Part shown: positions 10,952 to 36,535 of the stretch, piece after piece
Layout: each line of letters starts with the position of its first letter
How positions within the stretch are numbered: position 1 is the stretch's first letter
Assembly (NCBI GenBank): GCA_902362875.1
Contig: CABIYF010000029.1
Coordinates: forward strand, 1 to 36,652
Reading direction: 5' to 3'
From: Eubacteriaceae bacterium
GTDB lineage: Bacteria; Bacillota; Clostridia; Lachnospirales; Lachnospiraceae
DNA length: 36,652 nt
Program-made: the position numbers and the translations under genes
Notes under the pieces: model-generated
Seen by the model: the letters and a program-made list of their open reading frames with translations, nothing else
Databases searched by the model: none
What the model was told of the DNA's origin: nothing

Positions 10952-10975
10952 ACCAACACTAGAAAAGAGATTGTT

Positions 10976-11686: not shown

Positions 11687-11704
11687 GGAAAGGGAAACAT
11701 ATCT

Positions 11705-12424: not shown

Positions 12425-12428
12425 TACA

Positions 12429-14407: not shown

Positions 14408-14427
14408 TCATTTTAAATGATCATAAA

Positions 14428-14470
14428 AGGAATTCTGGAGGAGATTTTTCTCTGGAATTCCTGTTTTGTT
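14428..14470 (+). terminator. Possible terminator after the first Big_2 gene
   Basis: AGGAATTC (14428-14435) pairs with GAATTCCT (14455-14462), with partial pairing inside the stem. The following tract is TTTTGTT, so the U-run is imperfect and some read-through into the next Big_2 gene is likely. Confidence 0.55.
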
Positions 14471-14521
14471 ATAAGAGATAAAACCAAACATACACGATAG
14501 TATAGAAGGAAGATCACATCA

Positions 14522-16860: not shown

Positions 16861-16980
16861 TTAACATTGTAAAAACATCTTGACTTTAAAACGATGGTTG
16901 TCAGTCTGAATGGACAGATGACCATCGTATTTTTTACAAATGGCAGTGACAGATTTCAGCCCAGTACCAATGCAGTTTTT
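16861..16980 (-). other. Out-of-frame 3' end of the histidine kinase
   Basis: Reading the minus strand one frame away from the annotated kinase gives CIGTGLKSVTAICKKYDGHL and then about 18 more residues to a TAA at 16861-16863. This is the G box (GTGLKSV) and final strand of the GHKL ATPase domain, which the 407-aa open frame lacks. One extra A in the five-A tract (T5 at 16976-16980 on the plus strand) would join the two parts into a 439-aa kinase reading FLPATKNCIGTGLKSV. Either the gene carries a one-base deletion, the tract is variable, or the base call is wrong. Confidence 0.8.
16891..16935 (+). terminator. Terminator after rplT, inside the kinase 3' region
   Basis: ACGATGGT (16891-16898) pairs with ACCATCGT (16921-16928), with further pairing of TTGTC/GACA inside, and is followed by ATTTTTT. 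On the other strand the same bases encode the out-of-frame tail of the convergent histidine kinase. Confidence 0.85.
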
Positions 16981-18179
16981 GTGGCGGGAAGAAAGGAATC
17001 CACTGGCATTTTTTTGATTTCATGTTCATAAGGATTCTCGATCATCAGAACATAAGCCCCAGGTGCAGTCTGGAGAGCTTTGAGCTGTATGAATTTCTTA
17101 TATTTTTTCAAAGTGATACATTCAAGATAAGCATTTTCTAAAAGATTCCCAAGGATCATACAGAAATCAACCGAAGAGATTGTGAAAGATTCAGGAAAAT
17201 CAACGGCAAAATTAGCCTCAATATGATCTTTCTTACATAAATAATCATAATGGGAAAGCAAAGCATTGACAGCAGGCTGCCGGCAGTAGATCTTGGCAGG
17301 ACTGGAGATAGAAGCTTCATATTGGGCAAGATATTTGTTTAAGGAATCATAATCCTTTTGGTTTAAAAGTTCAGAGATAATAGCAATCTGGTGGCGAAAA
17401 TCATGACGAAGCTGTCTTGTTTCCTGTACATGTTTAGACAGCTGTGAATATTGTTTCGCCTGAACTTCCAGAATCTTTTGTTCTTCCAGAATACGCTGGT
17501 TTTCCACATAGTTGTAAGTGAGATTGTAAAATAAAATGTATAACAAAATTATAAAAATCAGTAAAGTCACTGTCATGGAGTAATAGATATGCATGGCATG
17601 TCTTGAATACATATCATAATAGTCGTAAGGAACATAAGTGACTGCAGCAAGAGTAAAAAAGCAAGGGAAAATACATGCAATTCTCCATACAAAGATATTC
17701 TCAAAATGTGAAACCATCCACCCGAGATATTTGCGGGCAGGAAAATACAAAAGTATGTCAGAGACGATCAGAAATATGAGCTGTGCAAGAATAGATTCTA
17801 TATAATTTGTTGTATAATGACCATGTGGGTATAAAAGCATGCCGCAGCTTTGGTAAACAATATAAGACAAAGCACCAAGACAGCAGGCAGTCAGCATAAT
17901 AAAAAGAGAGGCAGATGGAAGAATATCTGTCTCTTTCTGGTATAGATAAAAGAAAACAGGAACAGCAGGAAACATAAGAGCGTTGCCAAGATCCCGTTTG
18001 AGTACAAGATAGACAATAAAAACAATTATGAAATAACACACAAAAACAAGCCCTATTTTACATAGTAAATGAGAAAGAGGATGTTTTAGATGATCGATCA
18101 CTGGAAACAGGCAGAAAACAGCCATAGGAATGACGATCAAAAACGTAGATAAGTATAGAAAAATATCATAAGCATTCAT
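16956..18179 (-). CDS. AgrC-like sensor histidine kinase, C-terminally frameshifted
   Basis: A 407-aa open frame of the GHKL histidine kinase type. Six or seven membrane helices fill residues 1-222, a coiled-coil linker follows, the phospho-acceptor is His259 in LRHDFRH, and the N box is LGNLLENA (about 343-350). The frame then ends abruptly with ATKTALVLG, before the ATP-binding G box. The missing part is present in another frame just downstream (16861-16980). As read, the protein probably cannot bind ATP properly. It lies two bases after its LytTR response regulator. AgrC-type kinases usually sense peptides or other surface signals; no agrD/agrB-like genes are adjacent. Confidence 0.85.
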   Translation of the reverse strand: MNAYDIFLYLSTFLIVIPMAVFCLFPVIDHLKHPLSHLLCKIGLVFVCYFIIVFIVYLVLKRDLGNALMFPAVPVFFYLYQKETDILPSASLFIMLTACCLGALSYIVYQSCGMLLYPHGHYTTNYIESILAQLIFLIVSDILLYFPARKYLGWMVSHFENIFVWRIACIFPCFFTLAAVTYVPYDYYDMYSRHAMHIYYSMTVTLLIFIILLYILFYNLTYNYVENQRILEEQKILEVQAKQYSQLSKHVQETRQLRHDFRHQIAIISELLNQKDYDSLNKYLAQYEASISSPAKIYCRQPAVNALLSHYDYLCKKDHIEANFAVDFPESFTISSVDFCMILGNLLENAYLECITLKKYKKFIQLKALQTAPGAYVLMIENPYEHEIKKMPVDSFLPATKTALVLG

Positions 18180-18181
18180 TC

Positions 18182-18898
18182 TTATCCCTCCTCAAGTTTC
18201 AAGAACTGGTATTGAATATACTGTTCACGTATCTGTTTGCGTCCTTTCGTTTTGATCGGAAAACACTTAGAGTTCGTCATTTCAAAATAATCAGATTCCA
18301 TTGTTTTTATGTAGTCCATATTCAACATGATTCCACGGTTACACTGTAGAAAGCGTGGATCATTAAGATTCTCTGTAATAGAATAAAAAGGAAGACGGAA
18401 TGTCTGGCTGCCATTACTGGTATGGATAATGACTTCATGATTATTTGAATAAATATACTGAATCTTTGACAAAGGAAAATGAACATCAAAATTACGATAT
18501 TCAAAAGTCAGTTCAACTTCACTCTTAGGCAGGATCTGCTGTGCTTCATCCAAAACATGAGAAATCTGTTTGTATTCAAAAGGCTTCAATATATAATCAA
18601 AAAAATGAAATGGTGCGGCTTCAAAAATATGGTCAGCACTGGTTGTCAAAAAGACGATCAGCACCTTAGAATCCGTCTGCCGTATCTTGCGTACAATATC
18701 AATGCCATTCTGGTCTGCTAAAAAAATATCCATAAAAACCAGATCGTAATCAACGGATTGATAAGCACCCAGAAATGAACCACCATCTGAAAATGTCTCA
18801 ATTTCAAAATGGACAGAATGTTCCTTGCTGTAAACATCCAGAGTATTTAAAATAATTTCCTGTTCAATTTCATTGTCGTCAACAATTGCCAATTTCAT
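18182..18898 (-). CDS. LytTR-family response regulator
   Basis: A 238-aa response regulator. The receiver domain has the acidic pair Asp7/Asp8, phospho-acceptor Asp57 in FMDIFL and Lys in YILKPFE. The C-terminal half (about residues 130-235) is a LytTR DNA-binding domain with IQYIYSNNHEVIIHT and FLQCNRGIMLNMDYI. Such regulators bind paired direct repeats at promoters. It precedes the kinase gene by two bases on the minus strand, with AAGGAG before its start. The partner kinase appears frameshifted, so the pathway may be broken or switched off in this isolate. Confidence 0.9.
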   Translation of the reverse strand: MKLAIVDDNEIEQEIILNTLDVYSKEHSVHFEIETFSDGGSFLGAYQSVDYDLVFMDIFLADQNGIDIVRKIRQTDSKVLIVFLTTSADHIFEAAPFHFFDYILKPFEYKQISHVLDEAQQILPKSEVELTFEYRNFDVHFPLSKIQYIYSNNHEVIIHTSNGSQTFRLPFYSITENLNDPRFLQCNRGIMLNMDYIKTMESDYFEMTNSKCFPIKTKGRKQIREQYIQYQFLKLEEG

Positions 18899-23843: not shown

Positions 23844-24698
23844 TTATAGTACATCATGAATCAAAGATTCGAGAGTATCAACTGCATTTTCTTCCATATT
23901 ACAATGATAATAAAATACAGGAACTTCTGCAGCAAGATCTTCGGCCATGGACCAGATTTTTTCGACCACAGAAGGATTCCATGCATTGATCGTCAACTGG
24001 CTGATCAATTGTTTTGTAGCATCAAAATACCTGCATTTCATACCACCATTTTCAGGAGACTGATCTAGAAAAACAATGGCTTTCACAGGAAAACTTTCAT
24101 TATGACAGATTTCAGAAGAACCACAGATCGGCCATCCAAGAGACATCCAGCGATCACCTAACTTCTGAAGCAAAGTACGATCTCCATTGATTACTCTGGC
24201 ACCACGATGTTTTACCCAGAGATCTGCATGTGTTGACTTTCCAATACCGCTTGGTCCGCTAAATAAGATTACACCATCATCAACCTGCAAAGCAGAACAA
24301 TGCAGCACCATGGCATCATGGGCAAACATTCGCTTCTCCATAGCAAAAAGAGAAACAAACACGGTATCCGCTGAAAGCATGGAGAGAAACGAACGTTTAA
24401 AATAAGAATAGATCACACGTTCAGATTTTTCTTCATATACACCATAAGGTTCAGGAATTCCGACAAAATTCATGCGCCGGCTTTCAAGATTCCCATTTTG
24501 AAATACCTGCAAATCATTTCGTGTAGTAATACATTCGCCCTGTGGTTCTGGAAGTTCATCAACGATTTTAATAAAATATTCAGTTTGTATATCTTCGGGA
24601 GAAGATGAGATTTCAAACTTTTTGAAATTCTCTGGGATATCCAGAGATTCGTCCATATGGACTTCGAAGATGAAATCTGCGATTTTGTATAGTTTCAT
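23844..24698 (-). CDS. HPr-kinase-like protein of the peptide-modification locus
   Basis: A 284-aa P-loop protein related to HPr kinase/phosphorylase. It has a 100-residue N-terminal region, VLHCSAL (His133, the HPrK-like His), Walker A GPSGIGKST (148-156), NGDR (171-174) where HPrK has its acidic pair, then SLGWPICGSSEICHNES and AIVFLDQ. Short HPrK-like kinases of this sort occur in RiPP clusters. In lasso-peptide clusters such as paeninodin, a homologue phosphorylates the hydroxyl of the C-terminal Ser of the precursor. Here both precursor-like proteins end in Ser, which fits. It follows the first precursor gene on the minus strand, separated by a hairpin, with AAAGGAG before the start. True carbon-catabolite HPrK is unlikely: it is shorter, and the usual HPrK end region is absent. 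Confidence 0.8.
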   Translation of the reverse strand: MKLYKIADFIFEVHMDESLDIPENFKKFEISSSPEDIQTEYFIKIVDELPEPQGECITTRNDLQVFQNGNLESRRMNFVGIPEPYGVYEEKSERVIYSYFKRSFLSMLSADTVFVSLFAMEKRMFAHDAMVLHCSALQVDDGVILFSGPSGIGKSTHADLWVKHRGARVINGDRTLLQKLGDRWMSLGWPICGSSEICHNESFPVKAIVFLDQSPENGGMKCRYFDATKQLISQLTINAWNPSVVEKIWSMAEDLAAEVPVFYYHCNMEENAVDTLESLIHDVL

Positions 24699-24728
24699 AG
24701 AGGAACTCCTTTTTGCTTGATATTATAA

Positions 24729-24768
24729 AAGCTGAAATCAAAATAAGAGATTATCTTGATTTCAGCTT
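24729..24768 (-). terminator. Hairpin between precursor 1 and kinase (partial terminator)
   Basis: AAGCTGAAATCAA (24729-24741) is perfectly complementary to TTGATTTCAGCTT (24756-24768). On the minus strand the stem is followed by TTTATAAT, a weak U-run. It lies seven bases after the precursor 1 stop and 30 bases before the kinase start, so it probably gives much precursor mRNA and little kinase mRNA, a common arrangement in peptide clusters. Confidence 0.7.
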
Positions 24769-24775
24769 ATAAAAT

Positions 24776-25231
24776 TTAAGAATGATTAGGACGACTAGAA
24801 TCTAAAGGTTTTAATATACCATAATGATTCCAACGTCTGTCTACAGATGACTGTCCCCAATAATTGGTTGTTTTACTTTCTGTATGCCAATAAATTCCGT
24901 CATTAGTATCAACAATGCCATTATGATTTCTATCATCCCAATAATCAAATCCACCATTAAGCCAGCCTTGATCTTTATTATATTCACCAACGCTCTTAAC
25001 AACAGAACCATCATTAGTGATAACACGGTTAGCACTTGCGTCAGTACAAGTTCCAGATACGAAATCATGTTCATGATAAACATAACCTTTTTCGTTATAT
25101 TTCCATTTGTTTCCTTTATCACCTTTATTACCGGAACCAACACTGCAGGCAAGGCTGTAACAAGCAGCTACATATTCATTCGCAATAAAAGCTTCTTGAA
25201 TTGCCATAGGCTTTTCATAAATTCGTTTCAT
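24776..25231 (-). CDS. Precursor-like peptide 1 (151 aa)
   Basis: A 151-aa protein without signal peptide. Residues 1-29 match precursor 2 at 21 of 29 positions (MKR.YE.P.A..E.F.ANEYVAACYSL.C). It has just three cysteines, Cys24, Cys29 and Cys62, and His53 lies nine residues before Cys62 exactly as in precursor 2. The middle is rich in Trp, Tyr, Asn, Gly and Asp and contains an EF-hand/dockerin-like loop, DRNHNGIVDTND (100-111). The end, HYG then RPNHS (147-151), matches precursor 2 with the same spacing. I interpret residues 1 to about 23 as a leader for the modifying enzymes and the rest as a large core. AAGGGGGAG lies six bases before the start. Alternatively it is a small secreted binding protein exported by the ABC transporter. 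Confidence 0.75.
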   Translation of the reverse strand: MKRIYEKPMAIQEAFIANEYVAACYSLACSVGSGNKGDKGNKWKYNEKGYVYHEHDFVSGTCTDASANRVITNDGSVVKSVGEYNKDQGWLNGGFDYWDDRNHNGIVDTNDGIYWHTESKTTNYWGQSSVDRRWNHYGILKPLDSSRPNHS

Positions 25232-25543
25232 AGCAACTCCCCCTTAGTTGTTTTGAAATTCTTATCAATTTAAAATTTCACAAGTCTATTATATAGGGGA
25301 TATCAGAGTAAGACAAGATAAATTTTTTAAATGATAAAAATTCCTTATTTATTATCGCTATTTAGTGTGATATCTATATTACAAAATGTATGCCAAAAGG
25401 AAGATTACGCTAAAAAAATGCCTTTTACATCTACTTTATCGCTTATGCTGGTAAATCTTAGTACAATAAAATTACAAAAGAAGAATGTGGTATGGAATGA
25501 AGACGATAAGAGATAGAATTTAAGATAGAAAGGGGACATTGTT
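25232..25543. promoter_or_regulatory. Divergent control region between the two precursor genes
   Basis: A 312-base, very AT-rich gap between divergent precursor genes. It holds a good minus-strand promoter for precursor 1 (25288-25316). For precursor 2 only a ribosome binding site (AAAGGGG ending eight bases before ATG 25544) and a weak TACAAT near 25461 are seen. A 61-codon plus-strand frame (25331-25516) has no ribosome binding site and I do not call it a gene. Confidence 0.5.
25288..25316 (-). promoter_or_regulatory. Promoter of precursor 1 and the kinase
   Basis: On the minus strand TTGTCT (25311-25316) and a perfect TATAAT (25288-25293) have a 17-base spacer, 57 bases before the start codon. 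Confidence 0.72.
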
Positions 25544-25948
25544 ATGAAAAGAAGATATGAAAGACCAAGTGCCTATTTTGAGACATTTGCAGCAAATGAA
25601 TATGTAGCTGCATGTTACTCTTTATATTGTGAGGTTGCGGGGGATAATCTAAAATATACTAGAGATACGTATTTTAATAATGATGTAACATGGGATGGAA
25701 AAAGAGTAGTGCATGATGGATTATTACATGGTCGTCCATGTGCAGAAAAATCCAGTTACAACGATACTACAAAAACGTTTATGGAAAATAAAAAAGCTTC
25801 AAAAATAGATTCTATAGAAATTCTTAGCCCAGCAGGAAATGGAAGATATTATGCCGTGTGGGGATCTGATGATGTTAACAAAACAGGGTATTATAAACAT
25901 TATGGATGGGCAGTGTTGGATGATAAAAACAGACCGAATCATTCATAA
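25544..25948 (+). CDS. Precursor-like peptide 2 (134 aa)
   Basis: A 134-aa paralogue of the divergent 151-aa protein. The N-terminus has the same motif with KxYExP, ExF, ANEYVAACYSL and Cys24/Cys29; the third and last cysteine is Cys66, nine residues after His57. Residues 30-118 are mostly different from precursor 1 apart from a WG..xV patch (106-111). The end HYG (119-121) to RPNHS (130-134) has the same 11-residue spacing. The EF-hand-like loop of precursor 1 is missing. The pattern of fixed ends and a variable middle fits a leader, a diverged core and a C-terminal recognition tail for a tailoring enzyme. It has its own terminator and so is probably expressed alone and strongly. Confidence 0.75.
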   Translation: MKRRYERPSAYFETFAANEYVAACYSLYCEVAGDNLKYTRDTYFNNDVTWDGKRVVHDGLLHGRPCAEKSSYNDTTKTFMENKKASKIDSIEILSPAGNGRYYAVWGSDDVNKTGYYKHYGWAVLDDKNRPNHS

Positions 25949-25969
25949 AAAGTTATAAAGATTGAGAAG

Positions 25970-26002
25970 AAAAGTCAGATAATAAGAAAAATCTGACTTT
26001 TT
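25970..26002 (+). terminator. Terminator after precursor 2
   Basis: AAAAGTCAGAT (25970-25980) pairs with ATCTGACTTTT (25991-26001), followed by TACTTTTTTT. It ends precursor 2 transcription before the remnant and the radical-SAM gene. Confidence 0.8.
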
Positions 26003-26406
26003 ACTTTTTTTACAAAATCATACAAAAGCTGTACAACATCTGCATCTTCTTCCAATTCATCAACAATTTGCTCAAAAGACTTATTTTTATGAACTTTTTT
26101 CAGGATTAGTTTAAGTTTATTTTCTACTTGTCCTTGTAATCGTCCTTCCTGACGGCCTCTTTCTTCTAATTCTTCAAGTGCTTTACACATATTCACATTC
26201 CCTCCTTTTTCTTCAGATGCTACAGCATCATTAATCAATTTTTGCGATTCCGTAATACATCCAATGATCATAGCCAGTTCAGGGGATATATTTTCTTCTT
26301 TATATATATCAGTAATCTTATCATACTTTTTATCAAAAATAAACTTATTGATATTAAATATTTTTCTAATGCTATTGCAAAAATAAAAAACTTCCTTTTT
26401 CCATAA
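25975..26406 (-). pseudogene. Remnant of an Rpn/PD-(D/E)XK nuclease family transposase-like gene
   Basis: The minus strand is open for 143 codons from a stop at 26407-26409, but the first ATG is at 26271. The reading before that ATG (DKKYDKITDIYKEENISPEL) continues sensibly into it. The C-terminal part, NMCKALEELEERGRQEGRLQ and a final EDADVVQLLYDFVKK, is the typical tail of the Rpn/PD-(D/E)XK recombination-promoting nuclease family common in Clostridia, which is normally about 300 residues. The catalytic N-terminal domain is gone, so this is a decayed 3' fragment. It sits between precursor 2 and the radical-SAM gene in opposite orientation. Confidence 0.72.
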
Positions 26407-26452
26407 TCACATCATATAATAGAACAGAACACACAAGAAAGAAGGTGAGCCA

Positions 26453-27565
26453 ATGTATGATTTAGACAACATGGATTCAATGGAAAAGAGATTGATTCAA
26501 AAAGCATATATAAAACAAGCTCCGATCAATGGAAGTTTAGAGCTGTTACCACTTTGTAATATGAATTGCGACATGTGTTATGTTCGTTTATCCAAAGCAG
26601 AGATGGAACAAAAAGGCCGTTTAAGAACGAAAGAAGAATGGATTTCACTGGCTCATCAGATGAAAGATGCAGGTACATTATTTTTATTATTAACAGGCGG
26701 GGAACCATTGTTATTTCCAGAATTTAAAGAGTTGTACAAAGAACTTCAGAATATGGGAATGATTTTGACAATAAATTCAAATGGAACACTGATCAATGAA
26801 GAATGGGCTGATTTCTTTGCAAAGTATAAACCACGCAGAATCAATATTACATTATATGGGGCAGATGATCAGGCATATGGAAAGTTATGTCATTATCCAG
26901 CTGGTTTTCAAAAGACAGTAAATGCAATCAGGATGCTTAGAGATAGAGAAATCGATGTCAAAATTAATGGAAGTATTACATCAAAAAATGAGGAAGATAT
27001 AAAAAAGATCTTAGATATTGCAAAACAATACGATGCAGCAGTAAACCTGGATACATACATGTATCCGGCAAGCAGGGAAAGAAATAAGCCGTTTGATGAA
27101 CAAAGCCGTATGAATCCAAAGGATGCGGCAATGGCAAAAGTATTGATTTATAAATACCAGATGGGAGACATTGCATTTGAAGAATATAGAAGAGCAATAA
27201 TAAATACGATAGAACAATATATACCAGAAAACTATGGCTATGACCGGCATATTTCCTGTCTTGCAGGTAATTGCTCTTTTACAATTAATTGGCAGGGAAT
27301 GATACGTCCATGTGTGATGCAAAGTATGCCACAGGTAAATGTATTCGATAAAGGATTTTTACAAGGATGGGAAACGATTTCAAATGAAACAAAAAAGATA
27401 CTTATCAATGAAGCATGTGTATCATGCAGGTACCGTCCAATCTGCAACACCTGTGCAGCTGCAGCATTGCTTGAAACAGGAAACTATGATGGAATACCAG
27501 AATATATTTGTGAATATACAAAAGAATTTTACAGAATCATGAAAGAAGGTGCTCGTATATGTTAG
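26453..27565 (+). CDS. Radical SAM/SPASM peptide-modifying enzyme
   Basis: A 370-aa radical SAM protein. The AdoMet [4Fe-4S] motif is CNMNCDMC (Cys35, 39, 42), with TGGEP at 81-85. The C-terminal SPASM region has Cys269, 274, 287, 322, 325, 331, 334 and 353, enough for two auxiliary clusters. SPASM enzymes of this kind install thioether, C-C or other crosslinks, or epimerise residues, in ribosomal peptides. I see no PqqD-like leader-binding domain in it or nearby. A TATAAT lies at 26415-26420 without a clear -35, and GAAGGTGAG precedes ATG 26453. Its last seven bases overlap the ABC transporter start (ATGTTAG), so they are coupled. Its likely substrates are the two precursor-like proteins. 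Confidence 0.88.
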   Translation: MYDLDNMDSMEKRLIQKAYIKQAPINGSLELLPLCNMNCDMCYVRLSKAEMEQKGRLRTKEEWISLAHQMKDAGTLFLLLTGGEPLLFPEFKELYKELQNMGMILTINSNGTLINEEWADFFAKYKPRRINITLYGADDQAYGKLCHYPAGFQKTVNAIRMLRDREIDVKINGSITSKNEEDIKKILDIAKQYDAAVNLDTYMYPASRERNKPFDEQSRMNPKDAAMAKVLIYKYQMGDIAFEEYRRAIINTIEQYIPENYGYDRHISCLAGNCSFTINWQGMIRPCVMQSMPQVNVFDKGFLQGWETISNETKKILINEACVSCRYRPICNTCAAAALLETGNYDGIPEYICEYTKEFYRIMKEGARIC

Positions 27566-29355
27566 ATGATGAAAATCAGGATCAATCAAATCAGAAAATA
27601 TCATTTGAATCTTTGGACATTCTGATCGGAAAATGGAAAGATGGAACATTTTCAGAGATCATTGATGACTGGAAATGGATCTTTTCATACAGTAAACGAT
27701 ATAAAGGTGCAATTGCATTTTATACGATCCTTGGTATTTTCAGTACATCGATGGGACTGGTAGGAAGTGTTGCCAGTAAATATATGATCGATATCATCAC
27801 AGGATATCAGATGAGTAAGTTGTGGATCATGGTGGTGATCACGCTGGGAAGTGCATTTTTCAGTCTGACTGTTGGAAATGTGATCGGACGTATTTCGACG
27901 AAGTTAAGTATTTACATTAATAATGATATTCAGGCGGATATTTTTGATAAGATCATAGATGCGGACTGGATGGAGATCAGCCAGTACAGCAATGGAGATG
28001 TATTAAACAGGTTTAACAGCGATGTCAGCACGATCAGTGGGAATGCGATCAGCTGGCTGCCGACGATCATTATTGCAGTTTATGATTTTATTGCGACATT
28101 TGCGGTCATCTGGCATTATGACAAGATCATGTCACTGTTGGCATTTGCAAGTGCACCTTTTATGCTCGTGATGTCTAAATTTCTGATCTCAAAGCAGAGA
28201 GAATATGGAAAGAAAGTCCGTGAAATGAGCAGTGAGATGATGACGTTTGAAGTAGAGACATTTTATAATTTTGATACGATCAAATCATTTGGAATTTCTT
28301 CTCTATATGGAAAGAAGATGAGACAATGGCAGGAGAAATTTAAAGATATCAGTTTAAAATACAACATGTTCACGATCAAAACGAATATCTTAATGTCACT
28401 GGTTGGAATGGTCGTACAATATGCGGCATTTGGATATTGCCTGTTCCGATTGTGGACAAGAGATATCACTTATGGAACGATGACTTTGTTTTTGCAGCAG
28501 AGAAGCAGTTTAAATGGCGCATTTAACAATCTGGTATCAATTATTCCAAATTTTTTAAACAGCTCCATTTCAGCACATCGTATCAGAGAGCTTGCACAGC
28601 TTAAGAAAGAAGTACATATTCCAGAAAGTTCAGAGATGGACGATTATGTGGAAGATGGATTTGAAGTGAAGATGCGGGATGTAAACTTCTCTTATATCGA
28701 AGGAAACCGAGTTATCACAGATTCAGCATTTGTGGCAAAACCGGGAGAGATCGTGGCGTTGGTTGGTCCGTCTGGAGAGGGAAAGACAACGATGATCCGT
28801 TTGATCTTAGGTCTGATCCGACCGGAAAAGGGAGAAGCATATTTAAAAGCATCCAATGGAAAACAGGTGGAAATGAATGCCGATACTCGCCATTTATTTG
28901 CCTATGTACCACAGGGCAATACAATACTTTCTGGAACGATCGCTGAGAATCTAAGAATGGTAAAGCAGGATGCGACGGACGAAGAAATGATAGAAGCTTT
29001 GAAGATTTCCTGTGCGTGGGATTTTGTAAAGGAGATGGATGAAACGATCTATACAAAGATTGGAGAGAGAGGCCGCGGATTTTCAGAAGGACAGGCGCAG
29101 AGAATTGCGATCGCAAGAGCAGTCTTAAGAGATGCACCGGTATTATTACTGGATGAAGCGACATCGGCACTTGATGTAACAACAGAACGTAAGGTATTAA
29201 GAAATATCATACAACAGCGTCCGAACAAGACATGTATCGTGACAACTCACAGACCAAGCGTGTTAAATATGTGCCAGAGAGTCTACAGAGTTATGGAAAC
29301 ACAGGTCACAGAATTATCAGAACAAGAATCAAGTAAGATGGCAATGGACTTTTAG
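27559..29355 (+). CDS. ABC exporter (fused permease and ATPase)
   Basis: A 598-aa half-transporter. A 45-residue cytoplasmic start is followed by six membrane helices (about residues 50-320) and an ATPase domain with Walker A GPSGEGKT (403-410), Q-loop VPQGN, signature FSEGQ (508-512, in place of LSGGQ), Walker B LLLDEATSALD and the H-loop TTHR. There is no C39 peptidase domain, so leader removal, if any, needs another protease. It is translationally coupled to the radical-SAM gene and most likely exports the modified peptides. A multidrug or lipid role cannot be excluded from sequence alone. Confidence 0.9.
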   Translation: MLDDENQDQSNQKISFESLDILIGKWKDGTFSEIIDDWKWIFSYSKRYKGAIAFYTILGIFSTSMGLVGSVASKYMIDIITGYQMSKLWIMVVITLGSAFFSLTVGNVIGRISTKLSIYINNDIQADIFDKIIDADWMEISQYSNGDVLNRFNSDVSTISGNAISWLPTIIIAVYDFIATFAVIWHYDKIMSLLAFASAPFMLVMSKFLISKQREYGKKVREMSSEMMTFEVETFYNFDTIKSFGISSLYGKKMRQWQEKFKDISLKYNMFTIKTNILMSLVGMVVQYAAFGYCLFRLWTRDITYGTMTLFLQQRSSLNGAFNNLVSIIPNFLNSSISAHRIRELAQLKKEVHIPESSEMDDYVEDGFEVKMRDVNFSYIEGNRVITDSAFVAKPGEIVALVGPSGEGKTTMIRLILGLIRPEKGEAYLKASNGKQVEMNADTRHLFAYVPQGNTILSGTIAENLRMVKQDATDEEMIEALKISCAWDFVKEMDETIYTKIGERGRGFSEGQAQRIAIARAVLRDAPVLLLDEATSALDVTTERKVLRNIIQQRPNKTCIVTTHRPSVLNMCQRVYRVMETQVTELSEQESSKMAMDF

Positions 29356-29370
29356 GACAAAGGATGTCCG

Positions 29371-29396
29371 AATACGGAAGATTCGTTGACCGTATT
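29371..29396. repeat. Inverted repeat over the sortase promoter
   Basis: AATACGG (29371-29377) and CCGTATT (29390-29396) are complementary with a 12-base loop; TTTTC follows. It could be a weak terminator for the ABC operon or an operator, because its right arm overlaps the -35 box of the next promoter. Confidence 0.45.
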
Positions 29397-29414
29397 TTCA
29401 AAAAAATGTATAAT
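29386..29414 (+). promoter_or_regulatory. Promoter of the sortase/second exopolysaccharide operon
   Basis: TTGACC (29386-29391) and TATAAT (29409-29414) have a 17-base spacer, about 40 bases before the sortase start. Confidence 0.8.
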
Positions 29415-29453
29415 ATACTTGATAAAATCTATGAAAAAGTAAGGGGGAAGATG

Positions 29454-30245
29454 ATGAAGAAGAACGGATGGAAGATCATTCTGGCAATTGCAGTGTTAGT
29501 CTGTGTGGTCTGCCTTGGACGTTTTGGATGGATCAAGTACCAGAATTATAAGACAGAGCAGGCAAGGCAAGAGACATTAAAAGCCATTGCAAGCACTGAA
29601 TTTACTGGAGAGAATGATGGGGACGAACCAGAGAAAGTTCCAGCGGGAGTTAAGCATGGACAGAAGATTGATTTTAAGAAACTGATCAAGATCAACAGTG
29701 ATATTTATGCATGGATTTATGTACCGGGAACAAGAATTGACTATCCTGTGGCACTGAATCAGGAAGATGATACCCACTATTTAAAATATAACTTTAAGAA
29801 TGAACCAGAATTTGCAGGATGTATCTATACAGAGAAAGCAAACAAAAAGGATTTTACAGATCCAAACACTATTTTTTATGGACATAATATGAGAAATGGA
29901 TCAATGTTCCAGAATCTTCACAAATTTGAAGATGAACAGTTCTTTAACAAACATAAAGAAGTGTATGTATACACGCAAAAGAAGACATATACATATACGA
30001 TCTTTGCAGCTTACAAATTTGATGACAGACATTTATTAAAGACATTTGATTTTAAGAACAAAACGAAGTTTGAGAATTATTTAAGAAATGTCAAGAATAT
30101 CAGGAATATGGAAAGCCATATAAGAACAAAGCAGAAAGTTACAAGCAATGACAGGATTATTACGCTGAGCACCTGCGTAGGAGGACAGCCACATAATCGT
30201 TATCTAGTACAGGCGGTGTTAACAGATGAAAGAAGTGCAGAATAA
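29454..30245 (+). CDS. Class B sortase
   Basis: A 263-aa membrane-anchored sortase. An N-terminal helix (about residues 7-24) is followed by the class B core: INSDIYAWIYVPGTRIDYPV, the active-site His in IFYGHN, the catalytic Cys in TLSTC and Arg in NRYLVQA. Class B enzymes in Clostridia cut at (S/P/N)PxTG-type signals, and a protein with SPKTG is encoded two genes downstream. I chose ATG 29454 (or 29451) after AAGGGGG; an ATG at 29364 would place the promoter inside the gene. It overlaps the LCP gene by 20 bases. Confidence 0.9.
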   Translation: MKKNGWKIILAIAVLVCVVCLGRFGWIKYQNYKTEQARQETLKAIASTEFTGENDGDEPEKVPAGVKHGQKIDFKKLIKINSDIYAWIYVPGTRIDYPVALNQEDDTHYLKYNFKNEPEFAGCIYTEKANKKDFTDPNTIFYGHNMRNGSMFQNLHKFEDEQFFNKHKEVYVYTQKKTYTYTIFAAYKFDDRHLLKTFDFKNKTKFENYLRNVKNIRNMESHIRTKQKVTSNDRIITLSTCVGGQPHNRYLVQAVLTDERSAE

Positions 30246-31407
30246 AGTAGATGAAGCAAAGAAACTCAATGACGAACTGAAGAAAGAGCTGGAAGGATAT
30301 GATTCAGAGACAAAAGAAGAATTCCAAGGCTATGAAGTAAAGGAAGAGAAGCCGGAGAAGAAAAAGCAAAAGAAAAAGAAAACTCCGAAACAAATCGTAA
30401 AGAGAATTGTGATCGTGGCAGCGATCATCATACTACTTCCAACAGCGGTTATTTTAGGAATGTGGGCAATTGGGAAAAGTTCTCTTTTTGGCGGTAAAGT
30501 AGACATGTCGAAATCAGTGGATGGCGTAAAAGTCCAGAATAAGGGGGATTTGGTCATTTACAAAGGCCACAAATACCAGTATAATGAGAATATAACAAAT
30601 ATCTTATTTATGGGTGTAGACAAAGAGAATCTTGATTCCAAAGAAAGCAAGCTCAAGATGCGTGGAGCCGGGCAGGCTGACACCATATTTGTAGCAGCAG
30701 TTGATACCTCAACGGGCAAGGTTACACTTGTCAACGTTCCAAGAGATATTATGACTTACGTCAGATCATATGATAAGAACGGCAAATATGACGGGAAGAA
30801 ACTTCGTCAGATCTGTCTGGCTTATGCATATGGGGATGGAAAGAAGAAGAGCTGTGAGAATGTAGCATATGCTGTATCCGAAGTATTATACGGAGTACCG
30901 ATCCAGTCTTATATGTCTATTGATCTGTCAGCCATCAGCGTTTTGAATGATGCAGTTGGCGGAGTGAATGTTCAGGTGATCGGAGATCTGACAAGCGCAG
31001 ATCCATCTTTGAAAGAAGGAGCGAATGTCACACTGCTTGGGGGTCAGGCAGAGACATATGTAAGATCCAGAGAGTTTGAACCACTGGATGCGAATTTGAA
31101 GCGTATGCAGAGACAGCAGCAGTATATTACATCTTATGCACAGAAAGCATTGCAGGAGATGAAGAACGACTTGACGTTACCAATTGATTTATTGAATCTT
31201 GTGTCTGACAATTCAGTAACGAATCTTTCAGCACCGAAGATCACATATCTGGCAACGAAAGTTTCAGGAAGCAGTTTTTCATCTGATGATATTCAGAGTA
31301 TTGAATGTAACATCAAAGAAGGTGAGACAGGATATGCAGAATATTATCCAGATGAGACGAAACTCTTTGAGATGATATTAAAGGTATTTTATAAACAGGT
31401 CAGCTAA
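30226..31407 (+). CDS. LCP (LytR-CpsA-Psr) family glycopolymer ligase
   Basis: A 393-aa LCP-family protein that attaches wall teichoic acid or capsule-type polymers to peptidoglycan. An unusual cytoplasmic N-terminus of about 60 residues is dominated by Lys and Glu (EEKPEKKKQKKKKTPKQIVK at its end). A membrane helix follows (about 65-85), then the LCP domain with NILFMGVDKE, the Asp and Arg of GQADTIFVAAVD and VNVPRDIMTYV, and YVRSREFEPLDANLKRMQRQ. The start overlaps the sortase end, implying coupled expression. Confidence 0.9.
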   Translation: MKEVQNKVDEAKKLNDELKKELEGYDSETKEEFQGYEVKEEKPEKKKQKKKKTPKQIVKRIVIVAAIIILLPTAVILGMWAIGKSSLFGGKVDMSKSVDGVKVQNKGDLVIYKGHKYQYNENITNILFMGVDKENLDSKESKLKMRGAGQADTIFVAAVDTSTGKVTLVNVPRDIMTYVRSYDKNGKYDGKKLRQICLAYAYGDGKKKSCENVAYAVSEVLYGVPIQSYMSIDLSAISVLNDAVGGVNVQVIGDLTSADPSLKEGANVTLLGGQAETYVRSREFEPLDANLKRMQRQQQYITSYAQKALQEMKNDLTLPIDLLNLVSDNSVTNLSAPKITYLATKVSGSSFSSDDIQSIECNIKEGETGYAEYYPDETKLFEMILKVFYKQVS

Positions 31408-31434
31408 GCTGAACTATTTAAGGGGGAACAAACT

Positions 31435-31788
31435 ATGAAGAAGATAATCGTAATGTTAGCAACATTGATCATGAGTTTTGCTTTTGCAATATCTGTAATG
31501 GCAGCACCAAGTCCTGAGGACGAATACGATCATGATAATGGACCAACAACAACTTCACAGAAAAAAGAAACTCAGGAAAAGATTGATAAGAAAACAAAGA
31601 TTAGAGAAGATGAATTTGACAAAGACGGGGATAATGGAAGTTCTTCAAAGACATCAACTACAATGAATACAACATCTTCCTCTCCGAAGACTGGTGATCA
31701 TGGAGCACCGGTTACATTAGTATATGTATCACTGGCAGCTGCAGCATTAGCAGTATATGCAGCAAAACATGTACAAGAACAGAATTAA
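31435..31788 (+). CDS. Small sortase substrate with SPKTG signal
   Basis: A 117-aa exported protein. A signal peptide (about residues 1-23, cut near VMAA) is followed by an acidic, low-complexity mature part, then SPKTG (83-87), a hydrophobic stretch (91-109) and a short tail with Lys and His. This is a cell-wall sorting signal of the type used by class B sortases in Clostridia; the tail is less basic than usual. Two related acidic units, EDEYDHDNG (28-36) and EDEFDKDGDNG (58-68), flank a Lys-rich linker. Between the sortase/LCP genes and cpsB, it may be an anchor or metal-binding wall peptide; its function is unknown. Confidence 0.8.
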   Translation: MKKIIVMLATLIMSFAFAISVMAAPSPEDEYDHDNGPTTTSQKKETQEKIDKKTKIREDEFDKDGDNGSSSKTSTTMNTTSSSPKTGDHGAPVTLVYVSLAAAALAVYAAKHVQEQN

Positions 31789-31806
31789 TCACAATGTGCA
31801 CCAAAC

Positions 31807-31840
31807 AAAACCTCCGGTCGTAAAGAGACTGGGGGTTTTT
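31807..31840 (+). terminator. Terminator after the SPKTG protein gene
   Basis: A 13-bp stem with two G-U pairs (31807-31819 with 31827-31839; core ACCTCC/GGGGGT) and a 7-base loop, followed by TTTTTC. It may reduce transcription of the downstream cpsB operon, for which I see no separate strong promoter. Confidence 0.8.
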
Positions 31841-31858
31841 CGAATATGAGGGTTGACT

Positions 31859-32590
31859 ATGATAGATATACATACACATATTTTGCCAGGATTAGATGAT
31901 GGTGCAAGAGATATGGACGATTCCCTCGAGATGGCAGCAATTGCAGCACAAAGCGGGGTTCATGCACTGGCGGCAACATCACATGCGAATACGGGAGGAT
32001 TTTTCTCAGAATACAGCGTGGAAGAATATATGAAACGGCTTTCGGATTTCAGAAGAGAACTGGATAGAGAAGCTATTCCGCTAGCAGTTTTATCAGGAAT
32101 GGAGATTTTTATGACACATGAAGTTCCAGATATGATCAGGGAAGAAAGATTGCTGCCGCTCAATGAGACAGACTATTTCCTTATGGAATTCAGCTTTGGA
32201 ATTGAGCAGGAAGAGATGGATGAACTGATAGATGGAGTGATGGAACTTGGAGTAACACCGATCATTGCACATCCAGAACGTTATCAATGTGTACAAGAAT
32301 CGGCAAGGGGAATCTTTTACTGGATGGAACAAGGGTGTCTTACACAGGTAAACAGAGGAAGTATCTTTGGAAGATTCGGAGAAAGAGCAAAGATATGTGC
32401 CGATCATTTATTGTCAAAAAGGATGGTTACCTGTATTGCAAGTGATGCACACAAACCATATGAACGGACAACATATATGGCAGATATAAAAGAATATATG
32501 GAAGATCATTATTCTTTTGAATATTCAAAGAAATTATTATATGATAATCCTAAGAAGATTTTTGAAGGAAAGAAGATCATACAAAAATAA
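31859..32590 (+). CDS. CpsB/YwqE-type protein-tyrosine phosphatase, second copy
   Basis: A 243-aa PHP-fold phosphatase, paralogue of the gene at 10976. Metal-binding blocks are MIDIHTHILPGLDDGA, AATSHANTGG, the conserved Glu in LSGMEIFMTHE, IAHPERYQ and ASDAHKPYERTTYM. It should dephosphorylate the tyrosine kinases encoded just downstream. GAGGG ends six bases before ATG 31859; an in-frame TTG at 31853 is too close. It follows a terminator-like hairpin. Confidence 0.88.
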   Translation: MIDIHTHILPGLDDGARDMDDSLEMAAIAAQSGVHALAATSHANTGGFFSEYSVEEYMKRLSDFRRELDREAIPLAVLSGMEIFMTHEVPDMIREERLLPLNETDYFLMEFSFGIEQEEMDELIDGVMELGVTPIIAHPERYQCVQESARGIFYWMEQGCLTQVNRGSIFGRFGERAKICADHLLSKRMVTCIASDAHKPYERTTYMADIKEYMEDHYSFEYSKKLLYDNPKKIFEGKKIIQK

Positions 32591-32613
32591 CAGAAGTTAG
32601 GAGACTTAGTGAG

Positions 32614-33471
32614 ATGAAGAAATTAAAGATGGCAAGTTTTGTGATATTTTGTATATCACTGGCGGCGAGTTTGCTTTTTTGGTTTACACAAGTCAGAAAA
32701 GGGGACAGGATCGGACCAGTGATCACAATTGATCAAAAAGAACTTACAGTGGATTTGAATGCGACAGATAAGGATTTCTTAAAAGGTGTAAAAGCAATTG
32801 ATGCAAACGACGGTGATGTGACATCTTCTGTTGTTGTAGAAAGTGTATCAAACTTCTTAAGCGGAGGGCGCCGTCTTGTCGTTCTGGCAGCAGTGGATAA
32901 TCATAACAATGTCAGCAGAGCCAATCGCATTGTAAAATATGCGGGGTATACCTCTCCGACATTTGATCTGAAGAAGCCATTGTGTTTTGAGTCAGGAGGA
33001 TCTGTAAAGAATGAGGATCTGTTGAAGAATCTGACAGTCAAAGACAAGATTGACGGAGATTTGTCAAATCAGGTAAAGATTCTAACGAATTCTGTAGTAG
33101 ATCTTTATACACCAGGGGAATATCCGGTAAAATTACAGGTAAGCAACAGTGCAGGAGATACTGTATCATTTCAGGCAACGATACAAGTATATAATGGAAC
33201 AGAGAGATCAGAGATTCCATTTATCCATTTGAAGAAATATCTCGTGTATACAAAGAAAGGACATAAATTAAATGCCAAATCTTATATTTCAAAAGTATGT
33301 ATGGGCGGAGATTATGAATCAAATGTCAAAGGGGACGTTAATAATAAGAAAGTAAGCATTAAGGACGAAGTAGATTATAACAAAGCAGGTTCCTATGAGA
33401 TCACATATTCTGTAAAGAGTGGGAAGAGCCGTACAGGTACCGTAAGACTGATCGTGATCGTTACAGAATAG
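32614..33471 (+). CDS. Membrane-anchored Ig-like protein of the exopolysaccharide locus
   Basis: A 285-aa protein with one N-terminal membrane helix (about residues 6-25) and no cleavable-looking signal, so it is probably anchored and faces outside. The rest has two or three Ig-like repeats of the DUF5011/HYR type, recognised from GVKAIDANDGDVTSSVVVES and VKDKIDGDLSNQVKI, and a C-terminal GSYEITYSV. It lies between cpsB and the Wzz-kinase fusions, suggesting a role in polymer assembly or attachment at the surface; the exact function is unknown. Confidence 0.75.
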   Translation: MKKLKMASFVIFCISLAASLLFWFTQVRKGDRIGPVITIDQKELTVDLNATDKDFLKGVKAIDANDGDVTSSVVVESVSNFLSGGRRLVVLAAVDNHNNVSRANRIVKYAGYTSPTFDLKKPLCFESGGSVKNEDLLKNLTVKDKIDGDLSNQVKILTNSVVDLYTPGEYPVKLQVSNSAGDTVSFQATIQVYNGTERSEIPFIHLKKYLVYTKKGHKLNAKSYISKVCMGGDYESNVKGDVNNKKVSIKDEVDYNKAGSYEITYSVKSGKSRTGTVRLIVIVTE

Positions 33472-33486
33472 GAGGCAGGATGAGAT

Positions 33487-35127
33487 ATGAGTAATGAAAA
33501 ACATAATATATCGGTAAATGATTATGAAATGAATATAGATCTGTACAGCATTCTCAGAGATATCAGCAAATATATTGTAGTGATTCTGCTGTTAGCCGCA
33601 TCTATGAGTCTGTTGGCTTATGTATATGTAGGAAGAAGTTATCACAAGCAATATGAATCAACCAGCACATTTATTGTCAGCAGCAAAGGAAGTAACAACA
33701 GTGTATATTCTGATCTGGGCACAACGACAGAGATGGCAACAAAATTTTCAGAAATCTTAAATAGCAGTATTTTACAGAAAAAAGTTGCCAAAGAGATGAA
33801 TATGGATTATTTTCCAGGAACTGCTTCGGCAGAAGTTGTAAATGAAACGAATCTTCTTGTACTGAAAGTACAGGCGGATTCACCAGAGATGGCATTCAGG
33901 CTGAACAAAGCGATCATGAACAATTATTCCGTTGTCACGAATCAGCTGATCGGTACAGTTGTACTCGACGTATTACAGAATCCAACCGTACCAAGTGGTC
34001 CGGTAAATGAATTTCAGCCAGCCGCATTGATGAAGAAAACTTTTGTTATGACGATTATAGCATTATGCGGTCTGATTGCAATTGTATCTTTTTTGAAGGA
34101 TACCGTGAGAAAACCCAAAGAAGTTTCTAAAAAACTGGACGGAACGTTGCTTCAGACACTTTATCATGAGAGAATTTACAAGTCATGGAAAGCACGAATC
34201 CACAGGAAAAAGAGTAGTGTATTGTTGACAAATCCAGGAACAAGTTTTCAATATGTGGAAGATATGAAGAAACTGGCACGAAAAGTCAGTAGTAAGATGA
34301 AAGATAAGCAGGCGAAAACCCTTCTTGTAGCCAGTGTAGAAGAGAATGAAGGAAAATCAACTGTGGCAGCGAATCTGGCACTGGCACTCGCAGAAGAATC
34401 AGAGAAAGTGCTATTGATCGATGCAGATTTAAGAAAACCATCACAGTATAAGATTTTTGGACTTGCACCAGAAGAAGTACAGGAATTTGGTGAGGTGCTG
34501 AATGGAAATGAAAAGGCAGACCATTTGGTTCATGCACTGGCAAAGTCAGAGTTACTTTTGGTTACAGGAACTATGATCTACCCGAATTCTACAGAAATGA
34601 TCGCATCAGATATGTTTTATAAGATCGTAGATTTCTTTAAAGATCGTCTGGATTATGTGATCATTGACACACCTCCGATGTCACAGGCAGCAGATGCAGA
34701 AGAACTTGTAGATTATGCAGATGCATCAATTCTTGTAGTACGCCAGCACACAGCACTCGTAAAGGATATCAACGAAGCGATCAGTGTTTTGAATTCCGGA
34801 GATGGAACAATGCTTGGATGCGTATATAACGATGTATTCCATGGGATTGCCCAGACAGCAAGGAATTATGGATATCGTTATGCATATGGAAGTGGAAGCA
34901 GCTATGGTTACGGCTATGGCTACGGAAGCAAATATGGTTATGGTGGTAAATACGGCTACGGTTATGGTTACGGCTATGGAAGAAGCAGCAGACAAAGCCA
35001 GAAAGAAGATCAGAAAGAAGAACACCAGAAAGAACAATATAAGAAAGAAGATCATAACAAAGAACAGAAGGAACAACATAACAAAGATTCAGTGACAGAA
35101 CGGCAGGTGAAGAAAGAAGATGAGTAA
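33487..35127 (+). CDS. Wzz-BY-kinase fusion with Tyr/Gly-rich tail
   Basis: A 546-aa single-chain polysaccharide co-polymerase and tyrosine kinase. The Wzz part has membrane helices at about residues 31-50 and 180-200. The kinase part has Walker A ENEGKST (286-292), VLLIDADLRKP (Walker A') and DYVIIDTPPMS (Walker B). The tail is extreme: residues 459-499 hold 15 tyrosines, mostly as YG pairs, then about 45 residues made almost only of Lys, Glu, Gln, Asp and His. Known BY-kinases usually have fewer tail tyrosines. It overlaps the next fusion by eight bases. The fused form is typical of proteobacterial Wzc; Firmicutes mostly have split CpsC/CpsD as at 11705-13136. Confidence 0.88.
   Translation: MSNEKHNISVNDYEMNIDLYSILRDISKYIVVILLLAASMSLLAYVYVGRSYHKQYESTSTFIVSSKGSNNSVYSDLGTTTEMATKFSEILNSSILQKKVAKEMNMDYFPGTASAEVVNETNLLVLKVQADSPEMAFRLNKAIMNNYSVVTNQLIGTVVLDVLQNPTVPSGPVNEFQPAALMKKTFVMTIIALCGLIAIVSFLKDTVRKPKEVSKKLDGTLLQTLYHERIYKSWKARIHRKKSSVLLTNPGTSFQYVEDMKKLARKVSSKMKDKQAKTLLVASVEENEGKSTVAANLALALAEESEKVLLIDADLRKPSQYKIFGLAPEEVQEFGEVLNGNEKADHLVHALAKSELLLVTGTMIYPNSTEMIASDMFYKIVDFFKDRLDYVIIDTPPMSQAADAEELVDYADASILVVRQHTALVKDINEAISVLNSGDGTMLGCVYNDVFHGIAQTARNYGYRYAYGSGSSYGYGYGYGSKYGYGGKYGYGYGYGYGRSSRQSQKEDQKEEHQKEQYKKEDHNKEQKEQHNKDSVTERQVKKEDE
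34861..34980 (+). repeat. Coding repeat for the YG-rich kinase tail
   Basis: An in-frame, degenerate run of TAT/TAC-GGT/GGC/GGA codons that encodes alternating Tyr and Gly. Codon choice varies, but near-repeats such as GGTTACGGCTATGG recur several times, so copy number could change by slippage or recombination. Confidence 0.7.
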
Positions 35128-36535
35128 AGATTATGCAGAACATAGAGAGAATAGGGAGAATCTGATCGATATTGCCGGACTATTTGATAATCTGGTAAAA
35201 GTAGCATTTCAGTTGAAATTTAAATTTCTGATCACGATCATAGTATGTGGTGTAATTTTCTGTGGATATAAAAGGTTTACATATTCTCCATATTATATTG
35301 CATCGTCAACATTTACGATCAGTTCTAGTATTTCATCAGAGAATTCTAATACCTATATAGAGAATGCAACAGCTAACCAGATGGCAAAGTCATTTCCATA
35401 TATTCTGCAAAGCGGAGCATTTAAACAGGTATTAGCAGAGGATCTTGGAATGCAGTCTGTTCCAGGAACAATTGAAGCGGAAGTTATGGAGAATACAAAC
35501 TTATTTACGTTAAAAGTTACAGAAAGTAATCCAGAACTTGCACAAAAAGTTTTAGAATCAGTTGTTAAGAATTATCCGTCAGTTGCGGAATTTGTTATCG
35601 GAAGTTCCCAGCTGACACTGATGGATGAAAGCGGAGTCCCAACAGCACCTGCTAATCCATTCAGTTATAAGCACGAGATAGAGATTGGTGCTGTAATAGG
35701 TATTCTTTTATGTATGTTTTTAGATGTACTTCTTGCATTTGGAAAGAACACAGTGAAGAAAGAAGAAGATTTCAAACGCTTATTCCACGTAGACAGTCTT
35801 GGAATCCTGCCACATGCGAAGTTCCATAAGAAACGTACACAGGTAGAAGAACTGGTTGTTTTAGACAATCCAAGACTTCCAAGAAGCTTTCTGGAAGCAT
35901 CAAGAACAGTACGAAGAAGAATTGAACGAGCACAAAAAGAAACAGGCATGAAATCATTCCTTGTAACAAGTGCGATGCCAGGAGAGGGAAAATCTACAGT
36001 GTCAGCAAACATTGCGATATCTCTGGCGATGAAAGGATATAAAGTAATCCTCGTTGATGCCGACTTAAGAAATCCATCTACTGCAAAGGTTCTTGGAATG
36101 CAGGAGCAGGAACTTGGAACATTACAGGTACTAAAAGGAGAAGTCAAGATTGAAGATGCCGTACAGCCATATAAAGACACAAGCGTTATGGTACTGGCAG
36201 GTTCAACACCAATTCAGGATACATCCACTGTCCTAAGCGGTGAAAATATGAGACAGTTTATAAAAGAACTGGAAGCAGAGGCCGATTTTGTGGTAATCGA
36301 TACACCACCAAGTGCATTATTATCCGACGCAGCGATCGTTGCCCAGTATGTAGACGGCGCAGTCTTTGTTATCCGACAGGATTATACGGAAGCAGACCGC
36401 ATCCTTGAAGGTATGGAGATTCTTTCAGGATCAGGAGCACAGATTACAGGGTGTATTTTGAATGATGCGAATGTGAAGGCGAATAGTTCGGAGCATTATA
36501 AGAATAGTTATCGGTCGAAGAGTGAAGTTGTATAA
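35120..36535 (+). CDS. Second Wzz-BY-kinase fusion, tyrosine-poor tail
   Basis: A 471-aa fusion of a Wzz-type co-polymerase (membrane helices near residues 34-50 and 190-210) and a BY-kinase domain with Walker A PGEGKST (287-293), VILVDADLRNP and DFVVIDTPPSA. The C-terminus (SSEHYKNSYRSKSEVV) has only two tyrosines, so it lacks the usual tyrosine cluster. It overlaps the Tyr-rich fusion by eight bases and is paralogous to it, so the two may form mixed rings in which this subunit phosphorylates the other's tail. That is inference. Confidence 0.88.
   Translation: MSKDYAEHRENRENLIDIAGLFDNLVKVAFQLKFKFLITIIVCGVIFCGYKRFTYSPYYIASSTFTISSSISSENSNTYIENATANQMAKSFPYILQSGAFKQVLAEDLGMQSVPGTIEAEVMENTNLFTLKVTESNPELAQKVLESVVKNYPSVAEFVIGSSQLTLMDESGVPTAPANPFSYKHEIEIGAVIGILLCMFLDVLLAFGKNTVKKEEDFKRLFHVDSLGILPHAKFHKKRTQVEELVVLDNPRLPRSFLEASRTVRRRIERAQKETGMKSFLVTSAMPGEGKSTVSANIAISLAMKGYKVILVDADLRNPSTAKVLGMQEQELGTLQVLKGEVKIEDAVQPYKDTSVMVLAGSTPIQDTSTVLSGENMRQFIKELEAEADFVVIDTPPSALLSDAAIVAQYVDGAVFVIRQDYTEADRILEGMEILSGSGAQITGCILNDANVKANSSEHYKNSYRSKSEVV

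Follow-up and report, generated by a model that had tools for sequence, protein, structure and literature searches.

The 36,652-nucleotide stretch of DNA analyzed here (hereafter, the window; contig CABIYF010000029.1 of the Lachnospiraceae assembly GCA_902362875.1) contains a cassette of five genes that encode two small proteins, which we denote precursors 1 and 2, an HPrK-like kinase, a radical S-adenosylmethionine (rSAM) enzyme of the SPASM type and an ABC exporter (Table 1). An earlier note, made from the sequence alone, had proposed that these genes form a possibly new system for ribosomally synthesized and post-translationally modified peptides (RiPPs), and all five open reading frames (ORFs) were found where it had placed them. 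Its description of the precursors was also accurate: the two proteins are identical at 21 of the 29 N-terminal residues, share the C-terminal HYG...RPNHS and hold three Cys each. When the window was searched with a degenerate DNA pattern derived from a section of the shared N-terminal block, there were two matches, both at the precursor genes, and none in 100 shuffles.

Table 1. The predicted cassette, its flanking genes and other features of the window (aa, amino acids)
Feature	Coordinates	Strand	Basis
HPrK-like kinase, 284 aa	23844..24698	-	sub-cut-off HprK matches (Pfam/NCBIfam), AlphaFold2 model, invariant residues
Precursor 1, 151 aa	24776..25231	-	YxxP + NEYVAAC leader; C24, C29, C62, W115, H136; last residue Ser
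Precursor 2, 134 aa	25544..25948	+	leader as in precursor 1; C24, C29, C66, W106, H119; last residue Ser
98-aa ORF	25975-26271	-	weak sub-cut-off TIGR01784 match
Radical-SAM/SPASM-type enzyme, 370 aa	26453..27565	+	PF04055, E 1.3e-26; predicted core-modifying enzyme
MsbA-type ABC exporter, 598 aa	27559..29355	+	PF00664, PF00005; start overlaps rSAM stop
Class B sortase	29364..30245	+	TIGR03064 above cut-off; between exporter and surface-polysaccharide genes
Surface-polysaccharide module	30226..36535	+	LCP transferase, sorting-signal-like protein, CpsB, Ig-like membrane protein, Wzz/tyrosine-kinase-like proteins
Small secreted-looking protein	31435-31788	+	SPKTGD sorting-like signal
Another CpsB-Wzz-ATPase set	10901-13136	+	
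Two Ig-like proteins	13163-15466	+	Big_2 (bacterial Ig-like) domains
Histidine kinase and response regulator pair	16956-18898	-	GHKL, LytTR

We searched short rSAM peptides against a collection of 84,980 species, each represented by a single genome, and the best 80 of the 81 resulting stretches yielded 73 loci, five of which (L069-L073; rSAM identity of 24-32%) are excluded from all counts. The rSAM proteins of the remaining 68 loci show 40-59% identity by best segment, and their hosts, judged by record title, are mostly Clostridia-type bacteria and Erysipelotrichaceae, many of them from the gut, along with four Bacteroidales (L049, L052, L054 and L056). A rescan of these loci with hidden Markov models (HMMs) detected a precursor in 62, a PqqD-like protein in 57, the kinase in 49, the exporter in 41 (perhaps with some generic ABC proteins among them), an S24/S26 family protease in 35 and a nucleotidyltransferase of PF14907 in 27; the HMMs were built on clusters of these same loci, and the counts cover only the locus DNA examined. 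Unsupervised clustering of the neighbors gave generally lower counts (52, 46, 45, 36, 28 and 27, respectively). Among the 36 loci of at least 20 kb, 18 contain the precursor, the RiPP recognition element (RRE), the kinase, the nucleoside triphosphate (NTP) transferase, the protease and the exporter in addition to the rSAM gene, and 72 of the 89 rSAM genes have a precursor gene on the same strand within 1 kb upstream. The rSAM and kinase genes overlap in 30 of the 35 adjacent pairs (starts called mechanically), and in one assembly (L087:12201-14153) the two form a single ORF of 650 aa. The precursors of L085 are flanked by a pair of unlabelled ORFs that begin identically.

In the reverse test, which started from the precursors in 250 genomes of one family, the precursor profile matched nine genomes (E ≤1e-6). 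The rSAM at E ≤1e-100 is present in exactly these nine genomes (the next one scores 9.2e-89), as is the kinase at E ≤1e-55 (next genome, 9.8e-39); both cut-offs were chosen after the gaps had been seen, and looser ones raise the number of genomes to 18 for the rSAM (E 1e-60) and to 44 for the kinase (E 1e-15). An exporter with at least 57% identity is encoded in 17 of the 250 genomes and is accompanied by the rSAM (E 1e-60) in 16 of them; the 17 include eight of the nine precursor genomes, eight of the nine with a more distant rSAM alone and one with neither. PF14907 is less specific: it is present in 76 genomes and, among the nine with precursors, is missing only from G243. Five exporter candidates and up to eight rSAM candidates were scored per genome, so that absences are soft. 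We conclude that the genes for the precursors, rSAM, kinase and exporter belong together. The outcome that the earlier note had named as damaging to its proposal, namely homologs of the precursors mostly without rSAM, kinase or ABC genes, did not materialize: the first two occur in the same nine of the 250 genomes and the exporter, at the above identity, in eight of these. The co-occurrence of precursor, rSAM and kinase, along with the presence of PqqD in the relatives, supports the assignment to RiPP-type systems.

The precursors are mostly 125-160 aa long and carry a [YWF]xxP leader motif followed, in most cases, by ...F..NEYVAAC. In the alignment of 91 of the 93 precursor ORFs (the two under 100 aa were excluded from column counts), the Pro8, Phe15, Cys24, Cys29, Cys62, Trp115, His136 and last Ser columns are kept in 96-100% of the rows; the Pro of the aromatic-xxP motif is present in all 91, and two rows extend one residue beyond the last-Ser column. 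The earlier claim that the two window precursors have different middles is only partly right, as the middles are not simply variable and have Cys, Cys, Cys, Trp and His in common. The cores are large and probably folded: the AlphaFold2 model of precursor 1 is a beta-rich domain with five strands (mean pLDDT 82, and about 90 for residues 41-140), for which a comparison with solved structures gave no convincing match. A sister lineage, with more distant rSAM and kinase proteins (L102-L107, L109, L110 and L114), has precursors of about 80-110 aa, many of which end in C[YF]..P...Ser; this is a second core family that is built differently. Of its nine precursors, those of L109 and L110 were selected on the leader motif and by visual inspection; no precursor was obtained from L108.

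The last residue is Ser in 91 of the 93 precursors, against 55 of the 975 other called ORFs of the same loci; the remaining two precursors belong to a divergent subgroup and terminate in INSSI and INASA. All 13 matches of the precursor-first search are Ser-terminal, as are eight of the nine sister-lineage precursors despite their different cores (the ninth ends in SST). A profile search identified 70 precursor homologs at E ≤0.01 among 104 candidates, of which 57 end in Ser; among the 49 leader-bearing homologs of at least 110 aa, 41 do so, and the other eight are frameshift-like close variants of precursor 1. In paeninodin precursors, the reported target of PadeK is the C-terminal Ser, which is extremely conserved; in pseudomycoidin, PsmN is reported to attach a hexose to the Ser that has been phosphorylated (PMC9266682). 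Given the conservation of the Ser and the precedent of the paeninodin kinases, the reaction of the kinase is most likely phosphorylation of the last Ser of the precursors.

The window kinase shows weak matches, below cut-off, to the HprK models of Pfam and NCBIfam. Its AlphaFold2 model (pLDDT 96) retrieved HPr kinase/phosphatase (HPrK/P) as the best Foldseek hit (E 8.4e-6, probability 1.00), with phosphoenolpyruvate carboxykinase (PEPCK) also detected and with low TM-scores of 0.2-0.55. In the kinase alignment (50 rows; this set, A3, and the 78-row set A2 were hand-chosen for the structure alignments), H133, K154, N171 and D173 are invariant, where N and D belong to an NGD motif and the His lies upstream, and so are the P-loop residues G153, K154 and T156. 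The protein is thus predicted to adopt the HPrK/PEPCK fold with a P-loop.

The accessory genes of the relatives are those of the LPP RiPPs described in May 2026 (PMC13381572), in which SpI, RRE, HprK-like kinase, NTP transferase and MsbA-like transporter genes are encoded in capsule loci and discrete RREs bind the [Y/W]xxP motif of lasso and LPP leaders. The relatives resemble the lpp locus of Paenibacillus alginolyticus (PMC13381572) in the set of RRE, kinase, NTP transferase, SpI-like protease and MsbA-like exporter and in the capsule setting; the precursors share with the LPPs an N-terminal [Y/W]xxP leader and variable C-terminal parts, the LPP precursors being 35-200 aa long. The cassette could accordingly be a plain LPP-family cassette with an optional rSAM and with a kinase whose target, as for LppA, is an internal Ser. 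We regard this as unlikely: a close rSAM accompanies the precursor in all nine genomes of the precursor-first search, neither 'radical SAM' nor 'rSAM' appears in the main text of PMC13381572, and no Ser column other than the last reaches 55% among the 91 aligned precursors. There are further differences. Compared by eye, the leaders do not fit the LPP consensus YxxPxVLxHQxIxFETxxS and have NEYVAAC instead (PMC13381572); the hosts, by record title, are Clostridia of the gut type, Erysipelotrichaceae and some Bacteroidales, whereas neither 'Clostridia' nor 'gut' occurs in the text of that paper; and the window lacks RRE, protease and NTP transferase, so that only the kinase and exporter of the LPP set are present. 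The suggestion of a new system therefore has to be narrowed: the accessory set is that of the LPP RiPPs, and what is new is the rSAM, the large cores and the C-terminal Ser.

The rSAM appears to be core-specific and the kinase common to the core types. When the proteins on a quick rSAM tree were labeled with the C-terminal type of their neighboring precursor, 10 changes were required, compared to a mean of 31.7 and a minimum of 26 in 300 shuffles; the tree has 69 rows (rSAM proteins of at least 300 aa with an adjacent precursor of over 100 aa, plus the window rSAM), among which close relatives are not independent, and 23 of its 66 inner branches are unsupported. Two labelled rSAM genes are present in 11 loci, in each of which they lie next to different core types, and 10 of these loci have one full-length kinase, which is the basis for considering the rSAM core-specific and the kinase shared. 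This division of labor fits a kinase that reads the common C-terminus.

A different interpretation of the enzymes is that the system is sactipeptide- or ranthipeptide-like, with the SPASM enzyme forming thioethers from the conserved Cys and the kinase playing a regulatory role. The three conserved Cys and the matches of the rSAM to the PqqE, PapB, AlbA and other maturase models, all below cut-off, point in this direction, and the thioether part would be compatible with the interpretation we prefer, in which the kinase modifies the precursors. As a whole, we consider this alternative rather unlikely, in view of the absence of any maturase model above cut-off among the best 25 families listed, the length of the precursors, one of which is modeled as a folded beta domain, and the fact that the presence of the kinase follows that of the precursor.

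A modifying kinase links the cassette to the lasso peptides paeninodin and pseudomycoidin (PadeK, ThcoK, PsmK and PsmN; PMC9266682), with which it has in common the HPrK-like kinase, the C-terminal Ser, the [Y/W]xxP leader and, in the relatives, the nucleotidyltransferase; HPr kinase has also been reported in some lasso clusters of anaerobes (PMC4289311). The paeninodin-type combination of a conserved C-terminal Ser and an HPrK-like kinase is present here (91/93 precursors; 49/68 loci). The cassette differs from the lasso systems, whose cores are short, in the presence of the rSAM and in the precursor length. A Pfam scan of 40 ORFs of the window detected no asparagine-synthase or transglutaminase-like domains (lasso cyclase and B2 peptidase, respectively); for the relatives, neighbor clusters were inspected by eye rather than scanned. 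Going by model names, there is also a likeness to SynChlorMet (Scm, NCBIfam), a predicted cassette that consists of the PqqD-related ScmD, the radical-SAM/SPASM proteins ScmE and ScmF, and ScmC, which we take to be HprK-like and which the kinases match weakly. The Scm models scored far below their cut-offs (ScmC, 16 and 26 of 125 bits; ScmD, 23 of 100; ScmE, 75-82 of 400), and the ScmC/D/E/F set was not recovered above cut-off; SynChlorMet itself is not mentioned in the open-licence literature searched. Likewise, among the open-licence papers listed for rSAM in combination with capsule, HprK or HPr kinase terms, no description of an rSAM version was found (most subscription papers and all preprints being outside the search), and 'HPr' is absent from the accessible part of PMC10352776. 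We regard the cassette as a variant of the LPP/paeninodin-type RiPPs with new features, namely the rSAM, cores that are large and probably folded, and a C-terminal Ser that is kept almost throughout.

In 36 of the 68 loci, the rSAM has surface-polysaccharide (capsule) genes as neighbors, and 16 loci show the order rSAM-kinase-exporter/protease-CpsB-Ig-like protein-Wzz. In the window, the surface-polysaccharide module is a neighbor of the cassette and may belong to it. This proximity invites an explanation in which the kinase, rSAM and exporter serve the capsule pathway, for example with a sugar or a lipid as substrate, and in which the small proteins are surface proteins of no relevance to these enzymes. 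We find this very improbable: the locus DNA of 32 of the 68 loci, many of them short, contains no capsule genes, and the leader motif, the PqqD genes, the co-inheritance of rSAM and core, and the C-terminal Ser all indicate that the precursors are the substrates.

Taken together, a precursor with a conserved leader beside tailoring enzymes and an exporter indicates a RiPP system, and we propose, with a probability of roughly 0.7, that the cassette makes modified, exported small proteins that represent a radical-SAM branch of the phosphorylated RiPPs of the LPP/paeninodin type. Under this model, the [Y/W]xxP leader would be bound by a PqqD-like RRE, which in most relatives is encoded beside the precursor and in this genome presumably elsewhere. 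The radical-SAM/SPASM enzyme, each lineage of which is co-inherited largely with one core type, would then modify the core with its conserved Cys, Trp and His. The HPrK-like kinase, shared between core types, would phosphorylate the C-terminal Ser, as suggested by the conservation of this residue and by the paeninodin kinases. Where present, the PF14907 proteins might decorate the phosphate and the S24/S26 protease might remove the leader, by analogy with pseudomycoidin and LPP. Finally, the dedicated MsbA-type exporter, for which the Pfam scan lists no C39 peptidase domain, would secrete the product, which may act at the cell surface near the capsule, as the location of the genes suggests.

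Several observations weigh against this interpretation. Seven of the 36 long loci contain Ser-ending precursors and no kinase within the locus DNA examined, although in one of them (G001) the kinase is on the same contig. Linkage to the rSAM is not absolute either: of the 13 matches of the precursor-first search, seven have no rSAM in the flank of about 1.5 kb and six do, and two precursors of G002 are on other contigs. The kinase reaches no curated cut-off in Pfam or NCBIfam, and of the His-Lys-Asp-Asp motif that lasso kinases carry (PMC9266682), the His, the Lys and one Asp are invariant in the 50 kinase rows, the second Asp not having been identified. In LppA, the phosphate is on Ser3 of the core (PMC13381572), whereas the conserved Ser here is C-terminal. 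The window rSAM groups, without firm support, among the rSAMs of KS-type cores, whereas the window precursors are of the HS type. In agreement with the earlier note, a permissive six-frame scan detected no PqqD gene in the window, nor S24/S26 or PF14907 genes, yet PqqD is encoded in 57 of the 68 relatives' loci, as a rule immediately ahead of the precursor (the two are adjacent in 47 pairs), and Pfam PqqD, Peptidase_S24 and NTP_transf_5 score above cut-off on example relatives. Since a search of four related genomes found PqqD genes in every one, some of them on a different contig from the cassette, an RRE acting in trans is plausible in the window's genome. Lastly, 13 of the 70 homologs, close variants of precursor 1, start with YEKL instead of YEKP and have thus lost the leader Pro; among the YEKL matches listed, at least four carry an internal deletion that, by eye, covers Trp115; and the eight frameshift-like variants mentioned above, judged so by eye, bear the leader and read into other sequence before the C-terminus. 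The precursor 1 gene may therefore be decaying in part of the population. Full-length forms dominate, given that the three clusters of 151-aa precursors hold 59, 14 and 464 sequences.

If the proposal holds, radical chemistry is added to the phosphorylated RiPPs, and these are extended to gut Clostridia-type and Bacteroidales hosts. It also yields a testable substrate rule, under which the kinase corresponds to the C-terminal Ser and the rSAM to the core type, and makes the natural rSAM-kinase fusion a ready reagent, and the recurrent link to capsule genes provides a way into the unknown role of the LPPs and paeninodins. A more speculative extension, which we deem quite unlikely, is that the products are small folded beta-domain proteins rather than peptides, cross-linked inside by the rSAM, whose C-terminal phospho-Ser, extended by PF14907 proteins, ties them to, or primes, the capsule of the adjacent operon, resulting in a dual-modified protein-polysaccharide conjugate of gut bacteria.

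The class B sortase that follows the exporter is found in the same exporter-sortase-LCP order in three genomes of the Anaerostipes group (L012, L020 and L087), and in the window the sortase and the LCP protein are adjoined by the small protein with a sorting-like signal. The other CpsB-Wzz-ATPase set is the first capsule set of the window; a distance of about 18.7 kb separates it from the set after the exporter, and it adjoins the two Big_2 domain proteins. The ORF between precursor 2 and the rSAM gene weakly matches a model of Rpn/PD-(D/E)XK transposase-type nucleases. The GHKL histidine kinase and LytTR response regulator are encoded about 5 kb from the cassette; such pairs are common in peptide sensing.

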